Assembly (NCBI GenBank): GCA_001464935.1
Contig: LNEL01000049.1
Coordinates: 1-64,000, forward strand
From: Gammaproteobacteria bacterium Ga0077536
GTDB taxonomy: Bacteria > Pseudomonadota > Gammaproteobacteria > Ga0077536
DNA: 64,000 nt
Direction of reading: 5' to 3'
Shown: positions 40,754-48,544 of the stretch, one piece after another
Position numbering within the stretch: the first letter of the stretch is position 1
Layout: every line of letters begins with the position of its first letter
The notes under the pieces: generated by a model
What the model was told of the DNA's origin: nothing
Database searches by the model: none
The model's input: the letters and a program-made list of their open reading frames with translations, nothing else
Position numbers and translations under genes: made by a program

Positions 40754-41644
40754 TTGGCAGCTGACGAAAACGCCCTCGTGCATCGCTTTCTCGATCACCT
40801 CTGGGTCGAGTTCGGCCTCAGCGACAACACCGTTGCCGCCTATCGCACGGATGTCGATCACTTCCGACGCTTTCTCGCCGTCCGTGGATTGACGCTCGTC
40901 GCGGTGACCGACGCGGAGCTGTTCGCCTATCTCAGCCACAGTGCGCGCGGTTCGAGCCGCACGACGGCACGTCGTCTGTCGGCCCTGCGCCGCCTGTTCC
41001 GCTACCTGCTGCGCGAGCGGCTGGTCGCTGGCGATCCGACCGCCGCGGTCGATGGCCCGCGTATCGGCCGCAAACTGCCGCACAGCCTGTCCGAGGCGGA
41101 TGTCGAAGCACTGCTGGCCGCCCCCGACACCTCATCGCCGCTGGGCCTGCGCGACCGCACGATGCTGGAACTGCTGTATGCGACCGGTCTGCGCGTGTCC
41201 GAACTGATCGGCGTTCGCATCGGCGACATCAACCTCGTGCAGGGCGTGGTGCGCATCGTCGGCAAAGGTGACAAGGAACGCCTGGTGCCAGTTGGCGAAG
41301 TCGCGCTCGAATGGCTCGCGCGCTACTTCGACGGTGGACGAGCCAGCATTCTGAACGGCCAGTTGACCGACGCGGTGTTTCCGACCGCGCGCGGAGCTGC
41401 GATGACGCGTCAATCCTTCTGGCAAATCATCAAGAAGCACGGACTGCGTGCGGGCATCACGGCCGAACTTTCGCCGCACACGCTGCGTCATGCATTCGCC
41501 ACGCACCTGCTCAATCACGGCGCCGATCTGCGCGTCGTGCAGATGTTGCTCGGGCACGCCGATATTTCGACGACGCAAATCTATACGCATCTGGCGAAGG
41601 AGCGTCTGAAGGCCCTGCATGCGCAGCACCATCCTCGCGGCTGA
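40754..41644 (+). CDS. xerD: Site-specific tyrosine recombinase XerD
   Basis: ATGLRVSELIGV, SPHTLRHAFATHLLNHGADLRVVQMLLGHADISTTQIYTHL. Confidence 0.95.
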   Translation: MAADENALVHRFLDHLWVEFGLSDNTVAAYRTDVDHFRRFLAVRGLTLVAVTDAELFAYLSHSARGSSRTTARRLSALRRLFRYLLRERLVAGDPTAAVDGPRIGRKLPHSLSEADVEALLAAPDTSSPLGLRDRTMLELLYATGLRVSELIGVRIGDINLVQGVVRIVGKGDKERLVPVGEVALEWLARYFDGGRASILNGQLTDAVFPTARGAAMTRQSFWQIIKKHGLRAGITAELSPHTLRHAFATHLLNHGADLRVVQMLLGHADISTTQIYTHLAKERLKALHAQHHPRG

Positions 41645-41673
41645 GTGGCAGCGCGCCCGACGCGCGCGGCGTC

Positions 41674-43491
41674 TCAGTCGTCGGCCGTGGCGGGTGGTAC
41701 GACGCTCAGTACTTCCGCGAAGGTCGTGCGGCCGGCGCCTATCTTGAGTGCGCCGGCGAGCCGCAGTGGCCGCATGCCGTTGGTCAATCCTGCCCGACGC
41801 AGTTCGATACTGTTGCAGCCGGGCCTGATCAGCGCGTTGATCGCGTTGTCGATCGTCAGGATTTCGTAGATACCCTCGCGGCCCCGGAAGCCGGTGTGCC
41901 GACATTCGTCGCACCCCCTGCCGACCTGCGTCGTAGGCGGTGGTGCAACCGACGCGCGACCGATCAGGCTGCTCCAGGCGTCGACATCGGTCGGCACCGG
42001 CGCCTTGCAGTGGGGGCAGAGCGTCCGCACCAGTCGCTGCGCTACGACGCCGAGCAGCGTAGCGCCGATCAGGTACGGCTCCACGCCGAGATCCATCAAG
42101 CGGGTCACGGCCGATGGCGCGTCATTGGTGTGCAGGGTCGACAGCACCAGGTGGCCGGTCAACGCCGCCTGGATCGCGACGTCGGCCGTCTCACGATCGC
42201 GTATTTCACCCACCATGATTACGTCCGGATCCTGACGCAGCAGCGTGCGGACGCCGCCGGCGAAGTCGAGGTCGATCGCAGGCTGAACCTGCATCTGGTT
42301 GAACGCGGGCTCGACCATTTCAATCGGGTCTTCGATCGTGCAGACATTGATTTCGGGCCGCGCGAGCTGACGCAGTGCCGAATAGAGTGTCGTCGTCTTG
42401 CCCGATCCGGTGGGTCCGGTGACGAGAATGACGCCGTAGGTGTGGCGCACCATGCGATCCCACATTGCGATGTCATCTTCATTGAAGCCGAGCGCGGAAA
42501 ACGGCTGCTCGAGCTTCTCCGGATCGAAAATGCGCATCACGAGCTTCTCGCCGAAGGTAGTGGGCATCGTCGAGAGGCGCAGTTCGATCTCCTTGCCCAG
42601 CGGCGTCTTGGTCTTCATGCGACCATCCTGCGGCCGGCGTTTGTCGGCGACGTCCATGCGTCCGAGAGTCTTGATGCGGCTGATGATCGCCGCAATCACG
42701 GGCGTGCTCATCTGGTTGACGAGATGCAGCACGCCGTCGATCCGAAACCGGATACTGCTCTGTTCCCGCCGCGGCTCGATGTGGATGTCGCTCGCGCGCT
42801 GTTCGAAGGCGTACTGCAGCAACCAGTCGACCAGGTGCACGATATGCCGGTCGTTGGCATCCGGTTCGCCGCTTTCGCCGAGCTGCGTCAGTGCTTCGAA
42901 GTTTTCGACGATGTTCGTGCGTTCCGACGCCTTGCTGATCGCCGCCTTCGTGATCGAGCGGCTGACGCCGTAGAACTCTTTCAGATAGCGTTCGACGTCA
43001 ATCGGGTTGGCCAGCACACGTTGGATGCGGCGTTTGACGATCGGCGTGATTTCCTTTTCCCATTCAGTGATGAACGGTTCGGGCGATGCAATCGTGACCT
43101 GCGTATCGGTCACCTCGACCGGCAGGAACTGCCAGCGCGTCGCATAGGCCTGAGAGACAAGACTCGTGACCGACTCCACGTCGATTTTCAGCGGGTCGAT
43201 GCGGTAGTAGGGCAGTTTCGCGGATTCCGCGATCAGTCGGGTGATGGTCTCGATCGTCAGCGGATAACCCGGCGTCGTGTCGCTGTGTACGCCCTGCGCG
43301 GCAATCTGCACGAACGGATGTCGCCCGTCGCTGTCGCTGAGCGCGCCGCGCAGGCGCTGGACGGTACGCGCCTGCAGAATGCCGCCGGCGCGCAATTGCG
43401 CAAGCACGTCGTTCAGCGTCAGGCGCCGCTCCACATTCGGGCGCTCGCGCGCACCGCGCACCGTCGTCGACAGCCGTTCAGGTCCCGCCAC
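41674..43491 (-). CDS. GspE/PilB-family secretion ATPase
   Basis: Walker A GPTGSGKTTTLYSAL, GEIRDRETADVAIQAALTGHLVLSTLHTNDA, tetracysteine CPHC...CDEC. Confidence 0.93.
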   Translation of the reverse strand: MAGPERLSTTVRGARERPNVERRLTLNDVLAQLRAGGILQARTVQRLRGALSDSDGRHPFVQIAAQGVHSDTTPGYPLTIETITRLIAESAKLPYYRIDPLKIDVESVTSLVSQAYATRWQFLPVEVTDTQVTIASPEPFITEWEKEITPIVKRRIQRVLANPIDVERYLKEFYGVSRSITKAAISKASERTNIVENFEALTQLGESGEPDANDRHIVHLVDWLLQYAFEQRASDIHIEPRREQSSIRFRIDGVLHLVNQMSTPVIAAIISRIKTLGRMDVADKRRPQDGRMKTKTPLGKEIELRLSTMPTTFGEKLVMRIFDPEKLEQPFSALGFNEDDIAMWDRMVRHTYGVILVTGPTGSGKTTTLYSALRQLARPEINVCTIEDPIEMVEPAFNQMQVQPAIDLDFAGGVRTLLRQDPDVIMVGEIRDRETADVAIQAALTGHLVLSTLHTNDAPSAVTRLMDLGVEPYLIGATLLGVVAQRLVRTLCPHCKAPVPTDVDAWSSLIGRASVAPPPTTQVGRGCDECRHTGFRGREGIYEILTIDNAINALIRPGCNSIELRRAGLTNGMRPLRLAGALKIGAGRTTFAEVLSVVPPATADD

Positions 43492-44797
43492 TGCCGGCCT
43501 CCAGGACCGCCATCTGCTCAGTCACCGATTCGAGGCGATTGATCAGCGCCAACAGGAAGCTGCGCTGGAACTTGATCTGGGAATTGACCGACATCCGGTC
43601 GATGGTCGTGCCCTTGATGCGCAGCACGGTCACATTGTTCGCAGCGATGATCGTCGCGCAGCGCTCACGGCCGGAGAGCAGCCCCATTTCACCGAAGCAG
43701 TCGCCAATGCCGAGTTCAATCAGCGCGCGTCCGTTCTTTTCCACGTGCACGCTGCCGTCCACGATGACATAGAACGAGGCGTCGACGTCGCCCTCGCTGA
43801 CAATCGGGTCGCCGGCACGGGCGACGGTCCAGTCGCCGGCGTGGATCAGTTCCCACAGTTCGACATCCTGGAAATCCTTGAAGAACGGCAGGCCGCTGAT
43901 GCGCGCGAATTTTTCCTGCTGTGAGACGCCGCGCGCGGCGTCGCGCAAAAAATCGTAGACGAGCGAGAGGTCACCGGCGAAGTCGGCGCCCGTGCGATAC
44001 CGGTATTGCAGCGTGCGCGCCAGCGCCTTGTCCATGATGCGCTGATAGATTTCCGGAATGTCCGAGCGGAATTCCGAGAGCGGCGGTGGCTTCGTATTCA
44101 GGATCCGGTGCTGGATCGCCTCGAAGTTGGTGGCCTCGAACGGATGCTTGCCGGTCAGCAACTGGTAGCCGAGCACGCCGAGGGCGAAGAGATCGGACTG
44201 GCCGGTCAGCGGTTCGAGGCGGATCTGTTCCGGCGACATGTACAGCGGCGAGCCAACCCACTCTTCGCTCGCAGTCTGCGCCGCACTGTTCGTCACGGCG
44301 ACCCCGAAGTCGGCGATCTTGACGTCCATGCTGTCGCTGATCAGCACATTGCGCGGTTTGATGTCGCGGTGGACGACACCGCGGCGATGCGCGTAGTCCA
44401 GCGCCAGCGCGCACTGGTAGAGAATGCTCGTCACCTGTTCGAGTGGCAGCAGCTGGTCCGGTTTGGTGTATTGATCGAGCGTACGGCCGCCCGGGACGTA
44501 CTCCATGACAATGAAGTTGAACGCTTCGTCGGCGCCTGCGTCGTAGATGCTGGTGATGTTGGGGTGGCGCAGCATGCCGGCCGTCTGCGCCTCATTGAAG
44601 AACTGCTGGCGGTGCTGCTGAGCTTCGTCATCGTTGCCGCGAGGTCCCGGATTTGCCACCTTGAGCGCAACGGGGCGGTCGATGAACGGATCCTGGGCGA
44701 GGTAGACGCAGGCCATGTTGCCGGCGCCGATTTTGCGCACGATGCGGTACTTGCCGAGATGACGGCCCTCGAGGTCGGCTGCAGCCTGCGACTCCAT
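43478..44797 (-). CDS. Ser/Thr protein kinase fused to cyclic-nucleotide-binding domain
   Basis: VALK lysine, HRDIKPRNVL, DFG, SPEQ; C-terminal FGEMGLLSGRERCATIIA phosphate-binding cassette. Confidence 0.92.
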   Translation of the reverse strand: MESQAAADLEGRHLGKYRIVRKIGAGNMACVYLAQDPFIDRPVALKVANPGPRGNDDEAQQHRQQFFNEAQTAGMLRHPNITSIYDAGADEAFNFIVMEYVPGGRTLDQYTKPDQLLPLEQVTSILYQCALALDYAHRRGVVHRDIKPRNVLISDSMDVKIADFGVAVTNSAAQTASEEWVGSPLYMSPEQIRLEPLTGQSDLFALGVLGYQLLTGKHPFEATNFEAIQHRILNTKPPPLSEFRSDIPEIYQRIMDKALARTLQYRYRTGADFAGDLSLVYDFLRDAARGVSQQEKFARISGLPFFKDFQDVELWELIHAGDWTVARAGDPIVSEGDVDASFYVIVDGSVHVEKNGRALIELGIGDCFGEMGLLSGRERCATIIAANNVTVLRIKGTTIDRMSVNSQIKFQRSFLLALINRLESVTEQMAVLEAGSGGT

Positions 44798-45742: not shown

Positions 45743-48544
45743 ATGTCGCGCAAGTCCAGCAGGCGCCATGCCCGACCACGCCGGTGGACGTGGATTGCTA
45801 CCGTCGCCGCCTGCGCGGTCCTGGGCGGGGCGTGGTGGTTCGTCTCGCGCGGGTTCGGGGACAACCCGGATAAGGCCATCGCCGAGGCCCGAGAGCACCT
45901 GACGAGCGGCGAATCCGCGCCTGCCATCGTCCTCCTGCGGGCGGCATTGCAGGCGCGGCCCAAGGACGCAGTCGCCCGCGAACTGCTGGGTCAGGCCTAT
46001 CTGCAAGCGGGCGACCCGGCCGGCGCCGTGAAAGAACTGCGACGTGCCATCGCCTTGGGGCGCGAAAGCGCCGACAACCTGCGCAGCCTGGCGCGCGCGC
46101 ACCTGCTCAGGGGCGAATTCGACCTCGCCAACGCGCGGCTGGCCTCGGCGCGCGATGACAACAACCCCGACTGGCAATTGCTGAGCGCCGATGTACTCGC
46201 GGCCAAAGGAGCGTTCGGCGACGCGTTGTCGTTCTATGAACGGGCCATTGTCCTGGCGCCGGCCAGGCTCGAGGGTTATCTCGGCCTGGCCCGAGCGCAC
46301 ATGGGGCAGGGCGATCTGACCGCTGCCGAAGCCGCGTTGACGCGGGCGACGGAGCGCGAGATCAGCGGCACGGGCCTGTGGTTGCTGCAAGGCGAACTCG
46401 GCCTTGCCCGACGCCGCTTCGAGGATGCCCGCAGCGCCTTCGATCGGGTGCTGCAGGTGACACCCACGCACGAGTTCGCTCTCTTCGGAGCCGCGTCCGC
46501 GGCGCTCGGCAATGAACGTTTCGACACCGCGACCGAGCTGCTCGATCGCCTGCCGGAGATGGCGCAGGAGGGACCGCGCGCGCTGTTCCTGCGGGCCATG
46601 GTCGCGGCTGGCCAGCGCGAGCCCGAAGCAGCGCTGAATCTGCTGCGCAGGGTGCTGGCCGCGGCGCCGGCACATGCCGAGAGCCTGCGCCAGGCCGCGC
46701 GCCTGCATTTTCAACTGGCGGAGTACGGCCCGGCCGAGCACATGCTGCGCAAGCTGCTGAAGCAGGATGCGACCGACGCGATGGCGCTGCGCATGCTCGA
46801 AGCCGTCCAGCTTGCGTCGGGGCAGTTCGATGGGGGCGCCTATGACCTCAATGCCATTGCCGAGGCGCGCCGCGAGGATCCGCAGATGCTGGCCCTGCTC
46901 GGCGCCGTGCTGATGCGCAGTGGCGATTTCGCAGCCGGAGAGCGCGTGCTCAGCAAGGCCGCCGCAGCGAGCACCGGTTCGCTCGCGCTGGAACGTCAGC
47001 TGCTGCTGTCCAAGCTCGCCAGTGCCAAGTTCGACGAAGTCCTGGCCGGCGTGCCCGCGCTGAAGCAACTGGGCGACAAGACACTGGTGCCGGACATGCT
47101 GCTCGTCGCGGCGCACATCGGTCGCAAGGATCCGGACGCCGCGCTGGTCGCGGCCCGCGCACTCGTGGCAGCGAACCCGCAGGATCCGTACGCGCTGAAC
47201 ACCCTGGCGTTCGTGCATGAACTCGCCGACCAGCGCGAGGAGGCGGTGCGCACGTATGAACAGGCGCTGGCGGTTTCACCAGGTTTCGATGGGGCGCTGC
47301 TGAATCTGGCACGCCTGGACCTCGCAGCAGGTGAGCATGCACGCGCACGGGAACGGTACCGGCAGTTGCTCGAGGCGCAACCGGAGCACGCGCTGGCACT
47401 CGAGGGACTCGCCCTGCTGGCGATGCGGGACAAAGACCCCGCACAGGCGGTCGAACTCTGGCAGCAGGCGCGGCGCGCGAACCCCGACGCGCTGCGACCG
47501 CGCTTGCAGCTGGCCCGGCAGGCCCGTGAGCGCGGGGCCTTTGATGAAGCTGTCGATTACGCCCGCGAGGCCTACCAGGTCGCACCTTATGCGCCGGGCG
47601 TCCAGCTCGAATACTGTCTGAGCCTGCTCGCGGCAGGTCGCCATGACGATGCCGTGCCGCTGGCGCGTCTGCTCGCCACGCGCTATCCGGACGACGGCAC
47701 GCTGGCGCGCCTGCTCGCGATCGCGCTGGCGCGCAACAATGATGCCGATGGCCTGCGTGAGGTCTTGAGCGGCATGGCGGAGACTGCGCCGGACAATCTC
47801 GATGCACGGGTGGCGCTGGCGCGGCTCGCGCTGCACGAGGGCAAGGCCGATGAGGCGGCCAGGCTGGCCGCGGAGATCGGGCAGCATCCGAAGGGCGCCG
47901 CCCTGGGCCATGAACTGCGCGGCGACGCGGCGGCTGCCGCGATGCGCGCCGGTGCCGCGGCCGATGCGTATGCCAGGGCCTTCGAATTGGCACCGACGCG
48001 CGCGCGTCTCCTCAAACTCGATGACTGGGAGCGACGGGCCGGCCGCCCCGGCCGCCGGCTCGAGGCGTGGTTGCGCCAACACCCGGACGACTTGCAGGTG
48101 CAGACGGCGCAGGCCCGGCATCTGCAGGCGGCGGGGGACGACCAGGGCGCAATCGCGCTGTACGAGCGCGTGCTGGCCGGGGCCTCGGACAGCGCCGTCA
48201 TCCGCAACAACCTCGCGTGGCTTTATCGCAAGATTGGCGACGGCCGTGCCCTCGAAATGGCCGAGCAGGCCTATAAGCTCGCGCCGAAGCGGGCGGAGAT
48301 CGTCGACACCTACGGCTGGATCCTGCTCGAGCAGGGACGTCACGAGCAGGCGGTCAAAATCCTGGAACAGGCGCTGACGCTGGCGCCGGAGAATCCGGAT
48401 ATCCGCTTTCACTGGGCCAGCGCGCTGGAACGCACCGGTCGCGAGGAGGATGCGTTGCGTGAACTGGACGCCCTGTTGCGACAGCCCGGCGACTTCGAAT
48501 CCCGCGCGCTCGCCGAGCAGCTTCGTTTCGATCTCGAATCCTGA
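45743..48544 (+). CDS. Large TPR-repeat protein, PEP-CTERM-system PrsT-like
   Basis: N-terminal TM and more than 20 TPR-like units over 933 aa; N-terminus KAIAEAREHLTSGESAPAIVLLRAALQARPKDAVARELLGQAYLQAGDPAGAVKELRRAI. Confidence 0.75.
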   Translation: MSRKSSRRHARPRRWTWIATVAACAVLGGAWWFVSRGFGDNPDKAIAEAREHLTSGESAPAIVLLRAALQARPKDAVARELLGQAYLQAGDPAGAVKELRRAIALGRESADNLRSLARAHLLRGEFDLANARLASARDDNNPDWQLLSADVLAAKGAFGDALSFYERAIVLAPARLEGYLGLARAHMGQGDLTAAEAALTRATEREISGTGLWLLQGELGLARRRFEDARSAFDRVLQVTPTHEFALFGAASAALGNERFDTATELLDRLPEMAQEGPRALFLRAMVAAGQREPEAALNLLRRVLAAAPAHAESLRQAARLHFQLAEYGPAEHMLRKLLKQDATDAMALRMLEAVQLASGQFDGGAYDLNAIAEARREDPQMLALLGAVLMRSGDFAAGERVLSKAAAASTGSLALERQLLLSKLASAKFDEVLAGVPALKQLGDKTLVPDMLLVAAHIGRKDPDAALVAARALVAANPQDPYALNTLAFVHELADQREEAVRTYEQALAVSPGFDGALLNLARLDLAAGEHARARERYRQLLEAQPEHALALEGLALLAMRDKDPAQAVELWQQARRANPDALRPRLQLARQARERGAFDEAVDYAREAYQVAPYAPGVQLEYCLSLLAAGRHDDAVPLARLLATRYPDDGTLARLLAIALARNNDADGLREVLSGMAETAPDNLDARVALARLALHEGKADEAARLAAEIGQHPKGAALGHELRGDAAAAAMRAGAAADAYARAFELAPTRARLLKLDDWERRAGRPGRRLEAWLRQHPDDLQVQTAQARHLQAAGDDQGAIALYERVLAGASDSAVIRNNLAWLYRKIGDGRALEMAEQAYKLAPKRAEIVDTYGWILLEQGRHEQAVKILEQALTLAPENPDIRFHWASALERTGREEDALRELDALLRQPGDFESRALAEQLRFDLES

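Follow-up and report, generated by a model that had tools for sequence, protein, structure and literature searches.

A TfpB-type pilus extension ATPase gene paired with a kinase and cyclic-nucleotide-binding-domain gene in a gammaproteobacterial genome

Two adjoining genes on the minus strand

The window analyzed here, a 64,000-nt stretch of contig LNEL01000049.1 from Gammaproteobacteria bacterium Ga0077536, carries two consecutive genes on its minus strand. The first begins with an ATG at position 44797, terminates with a TGA whose last base is 43478, and encodes a 439-aa protein in which an N-terminal Hanks-type Ser/Thr kinase (PF00069, E=8e-49) is joined to a C-terminal cyclic-nucleotide-binding (CNB) domain (PF00027, E=1e-14). 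The second, tfpB, runs from a GTG at 43491 to 41674 and encodes an ATPase of 605 aa. ORF calling places the kinase stop and the tfpB start in a 14-nt overlap (43478..43491, minus strand), exactly as given in the original prediction. A GGAGG sequence (43498..43502, minus strand), likely to be the tfpB ribosome-binding site, lies within the kinase gene 6 nt ahead of the GTG. The proposed translational coupling of the two genes is plausible, although the overlap itself is not conserved in relatives. Kinase/tfpB junctions among these relatives are close, ranging from about -14 to +50 nt; because their lengths vary, we rejected the 14-nt overlap as a conserved signature. The conserved feature of the junction is adjacency only.

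Downstream of the pair lies a convergent xerD gene, and upstream lie divergent dsbC and PrsT-like genes. The latter (45743-48544, plus strand) adjoins dsbC and encodes a TPR protein of the XrtA/PEP-CTERM type that scores 549 bits, above its cut-off; it is kept at the same locus in several relatives. On the strand opposite tfpB, an open frame of 743 aa (41311-43542, plus strand) is most likely a GC-rich shadow ORF.

The AlphaFold model of the kinase-CNB protein (mean pLDDT 85.8) yields a fold match to PknB. The kinase domain (residues 17-266; 44000..44749, minus strand) contains a G-loop (GAGNMACVY), K46, HRD (residues 143-145), and DFG (residues 163-165), and by these motifs is predicted to be catalytically intact. 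The protein shares the kinase-domain fold and motifs of Hanks kinases of the PknB/StkP type, but it has no transmembrane or PASTA part, and the CNB domain occupies their place. Among solved structures, this CNB domain (residues 326-401; 43595..43822, minus strand) is closest to those of PKG and the PKA regulatory subunits. Its phosphate-binding cassette, FGEMGLLSGRERCAT (residues 368-382; 43652..43696, minus strand), includes F368, G369, E370, and R379, each invariant in an alignment of 37 kinase-CNB sequences. The domain therefore keeps the cyclic-nucleotide contact residues and is a predicted binding domain. The residue following the cassette arginine is a cysteine in the window copy and mostly threonine or serine in relatives, which does not settle whether cAMP or cGMP is bound. 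Two strong matches to class III cyclases and a weaker third were detected in the genome; with two clear cyclase genes, a cyclic nucleotide is plausibly made in this organism.

Eukaryotic PKG likewise combines a kinase and CNB domains in one chain. In PKG, the CNB domains are N-terminal to an AGC kinase domain, whereas the window protein has the reverse order, with a PknB-like kinase first and a single CNB domain last. The resemblance is one of architecture only, and is best regarded as an analogy.

Three further kinase-CNB paralogues are encoded in the same genome and are linked to other genes, namely pgi and a gene for a PilZ-DUF1631-GGDEF-EAL protein. The kinase-CNB family is therefore not specific to type IV pili. 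One contig of the genome (C60) carries kinase-CNB paralogues flanking pgi (L174:8156-12629), and a similar arrangement, with two paralogues in most genomes (L024-L036), is conserved near nuoMN-like genes in many gammaproteobacterial metagenome-assembled genomes (MAGs). On the same contig, at about 83.6-88.8 kb (L173:8156-13254), the third paralogue starts at most 4 nt from the end of the gene for the 1273-aa PilZ-DUF1631-GGDEF-EAL protein. A neighbor of this type (41-46% identity) also precedes a kinase-CNB paralogue at three other loci (L134, L136, and L137), an adjacency that suggests a link between a cyclic-nucleotide-type kinase and c-di-GMP signaling.

The ATPase and the pilus genes of the genome

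The ATPase (41674..43491, minus strand; AlphaFold mean pLDDT 80.7) consists of an MshEN-type N-terminal domain (PF05157, E=6.5e-12; residues 92-178; 42958..43218) and a T2SSE ATPase core (PF00437, E=8e-127; residues 213-595; 41707..42855). The Walker A sequence GPTGSGKT (residues 359-366; 42394..42417) and a tetracysteine region formed by C492, C495, C527, and C530 (41902..42018) are retained, as originally described, and both are invariant across an alignment of 31 TfpB sequences.

The original prediction described this protein as an orphan GspE/PilB-type ATPase and considered a role in secretion. Profile comparison assigns it differently, with 838 bits for the TfpB model versus 508 for GspE and 492 for PilB. 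The score against the TfpB model, NCBIfam NF053534, is 838.4 bits just short of the curated cut-off of 850, a threshold that seven orthologues from the order pass, including three from the same genus. In a tree of 100 TfpB-group sequences, built by a quick method, for which the PilB, MshE, GspE-like, and C56 ATPases of the same genome served as outgroup, all TfpB matches, including the window ATPase, are split from the outgroup with a support of 100. The TfpB identity thus rests on the NCBIfam model and on this tree, in which the Acinetobacter TfpB sequence itself is not included. The protein retains a distant similarity to GspE, reflected in the 508 bits noted above, but it is neither closest to GspE nor linked to gsp genes, and a GspE-like/GspF-like pair accompanied by a secretin is present at a separate locus. 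On the basis of profile scores, tree, and genome inventory, we rejected a GspE identity, and a secretion ATPase under kinase control is very improbable. By sequence, the window ATPase belongs to the TfpB group, a known kind of second type IV pilus extension motor.

A role in anti-phage defense was also rejected. The PADLOC matches reflect similarity of the kinase domain only (PD-T4-6 models). For the ATPase, the sole match was a weak one to mad8 (18 bits), over the P-loop.

Consistent with the reported lack of gspF, gspD, or pil genes nearby, whole-genome profile searches found no second GspE-type ATPase, PF00482 platform protein, or PF00263 secretin in the 64-kb window. PilB, PilC, and PilT/PilU-type ATPases are encoded elsewhere in the genome, and tfpB is not co-located with pilC; an MSHA locus occupies yet another site. 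The ATPase is therefore an orphan by position, as originally described, but not by function, and the GspE label was too coarse. The gene that follows pilC (L168, 11299-12168) probably encodes a prepilin peptidase, judging by position only. An isolated PilB/GspE-like ATPase (L171:8180-10321) resides on contig C56, which has no platform-protein match, and the gene after it resembles one for an HDOD protein.

In Acinetobacter baylyi, TfpB is a second, distinct extension motor that is required for efficient pilus formation (PMC8213720; reviewed in PMC11656802). The window ATPase falls in the same group by profile and tree, its gene is likewise not beside pilC, and PilB is present in the genome besides. 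The two systems differ in that no kinase is mentioned in the A. baylyi study (PMC8213720), whereas the window tfpB is paired with a kinase-CNB gene. A second difference is seen in two genomes of the same family (G026, which is 98% complete, and G027) that carry tfpB and the kinase, and in which no PilB match was found at E<=1e-180, so that pilus extension may depend on TfpB alone in these organisms.

Conservation and history of the pairing

Within the order, tfpB occurs in 21 of 36 genomes, mostly MAGs, and the kinase gene lies directly upstream of it in 20 of these 21. In an additional genome (G015), the kinase gene is located at the end of a contig, accompanied by a tfpB fragment. The pairing is thus far from confined to the genome in which it was first noticed. 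At GC-rich loci with antisense shadow ORFs (e.g., L079, L208, and L210), the presence of the kinase was checked by tblastn. The gene order xerD/tfpB/kinase/dsbC is found in all eight of the genome-contig loci that have the kinase between xerD and dsbC. In a class-wide sample of 369 genomes, nine of whose TfpB neighborhoods were covered by the kinase search only, TfpB was detected in 92; most gammaproteobacterial tfpB genes are without the kinase, which was seen beside tfpB only in the window's family, an uncultured one, and in two others (f120 and f133).

In a tree of 85 kinases, likewise built by a quick method, the tfpB-linked representatives form one clade (23 sequences from three families, SH-aLRT 99) that contains no unlinked member. 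As a single clade of linked kinases was reproduced in none of 500 label shuffles, the pairing is not a matter of chance. In two f133 genomes (G167 and G279), the pair does not occupy the xerD site, but sits near genes that we take by sight to be recN and gcvP-like and near a greB-like gene named by Pfam; in a relative of these genomes (G374), the old xerD site harbors tfpB with no kinase. The occurrence of the pair at another chromosomal site indicates that kinase and tfpB moved as a unit. The kinase is absent from G005 and G374, with tfpB intact in both, and three f119 genomes have tfpB flanked by xerD and dsbC but lack the adjacent kinase. The simplest history that we infer from the trees is one in which tfpB was present first at the xerD site, the kinase was gained once, the pair moved in G167 and G279, and the kinase was lost in G005 and G374. 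In G001, the kinase frame (L076:125-1416) is broken near its 5' end, which might reflect a genuine lesion or a fault in the assembly.

These distributions bear on whether the two genes might be mere operon companions, with the kinase acting on other targets and the pairing reflecting co-expression. Such an arrangement would fit with the paralogues of the same genomes that adjoin unrelated genes such as pgi, with the variable overlap length, and with the persistence of tfpB without the kinase in several genomes. However, linkage to tfpB is restricted to this one kinase clade, and it persisted when the pair was relocated on the chromosome. We consider simple companionship unlikely. We favor the reading in which the pair comprises a TfpB-type second type IV pilus extension ATPase and its own dedicated cyclic-nucleotide-responsive regulator, formed by a Hanks-type kinase and a PKA/PKG-like CNB domain, and would give it a probability of roughly 55%. 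Counting against a dedicated regulator are the kinase absences in G005 and G374, the broken 5' end in G001, the many gammaproteobacterial TfpBs without a kinase, the paralogues at non-pilus genes, and the loss of a catalytic residue in relatives that is described below.

A putative cyclic-nucleotide input to pilus extension

The catalytic aspartate of the HRD motif has been lost in at least six distinct tfpB-linked kinases (6/23), as compared with none of 62 unlinked paralogues. All six (G007, G010, G011, G012, G013, and G014) belong to the window's own genus and carry HQN, HRN, or HRQ instead, and two of them also lack the DFG aspartate (NFG). Nevertheless, all six keep the FGE...R cassette and the tfpB neighbor. 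Two close pairs of these pseudokinases have dN/dS values of 0.10 and 0.16, versus 0.02-0.07 in active pairs, which points to a retained function, though under relaxed constraint relative to the active pairs. Because the CNB domain, the adjacency to tfpB, and purifying selection have all outlasted the aspartate, a non-catalytic role is possible, and the CNB or scaffold half may be the part that carries the conserved role.

Taken further, these observations could mean a mainly non-catalytic mode of action on TfpB, in which the protein serves as a cyclic-nucleotide-gated scaffold or allosteric partner and kinase activity is secondary or lost. However, in the window copy and most other members of the clade every catalytic motif is retained, and the kinase part evolves under strong purifying selection; the pseudokinases occur in a single subclade within one genus and may represent a derived state. 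We regard a predominantly non-catalytic role as rather improbable.

The gene identities, the overlap, the conserved and jointly relocated pair, the intact catalytic and cyclic-nucleotide contact residues, and the purifying selection are observed features. Beyond these, the favored reading of a dedicated regulator supposes that the two proteins act together, that cAMP or cGMP is the ligand, and that control runs in a particular direction; regulation of the ATPase by the kinase, as originally proposed, is likewise putative, and so is its phosphorylation. The kinase-CNB protein and TfpB would be expressed, coupled, from one operon; the former would bind cAMP or cGMP and would alter either the activity of TfpB or its engagement with the pilus base, such that pilus extension would track the cyclic nucleotide level. 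In lineages with an intact kinase, including this genome, the effect might be exerted via phosphorylation of TfpB or of a pilus partner, whereas sister lineages whose kinase is dead would rely on binding alone. In a more specific version, the kinase-CNB protein, with its PKG-like layout, would act directly on the motor and, once it has bound cAMP or cGMP, switch TfpB-driven extension by phosphorylation; one sub-lineage would have turned the kinase into a dead, cyclic-nucleotide-gated adaptor while keeping the switch. This version is tentative and somewhat doubtful.

One candidate phosphosite, a weak one, is Thr202 of TfpB (42886..42888, minus strand), which falls in a low-confidence, flexible linker of the AlphaFold model. 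All 23 kinase-linked TfpBs have threonine at this position, as do both lineages in which the kinase is taken to have been lost; the residue in other TfpBs is mostly hydrophobic. Since 12 other positions share the kinase-linked pattern through common ancestry, which confounds it, and threonine also occurs at this position in four unlinked TfpBs, we keep Thr202 only as a lead.

Cyclic AMP is known to influence type IV pili transcriptionally, through Vfr. Second-messenger control of a pilus extension ATPase itself is exemplified by the regulation of PilB by FimX, PilZ, and c-di-GMP, in which c-di-GMP acts through other proteins (PMC11656802). The system proposed here would resemble this control, but would use a cyclic mononucleotide via the kinase-CNB protein rather than c-di-GMP via FimX or PilZ. 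In A. baylyi, the known regulatory input CpiA acts on PilB, not on TfpB (PMC8213720). A 2024 review of PilB regulation contains no report of a pair formed by a kinase-CNB protein and an extension ATPase, and no description of such a pairing was found in the literature searched, subscription papers and preprints lying outside its scope. None of the components (TfpB, Hanks kinases, CNB domains) is new in itself. What stands of the original prediction of an undescribed two-gene system is therefore the conserved pairing, for which no earlier description was found; the parts are known, and the TfpB motor is of a known kind.

If the favored reading is correct, the kinase-CNB/tfpB pair may let cAMP or cGMP control pilus growth, and would constitute a direct, post-translational cyclic-nucleotide input to a pilus extension motor. 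It would also give a rationale for the retention of a second extension motor in some bacteria. Since intact, inactivated, and missing kinases all occur naturally beside the same motor, this question is open to testing.
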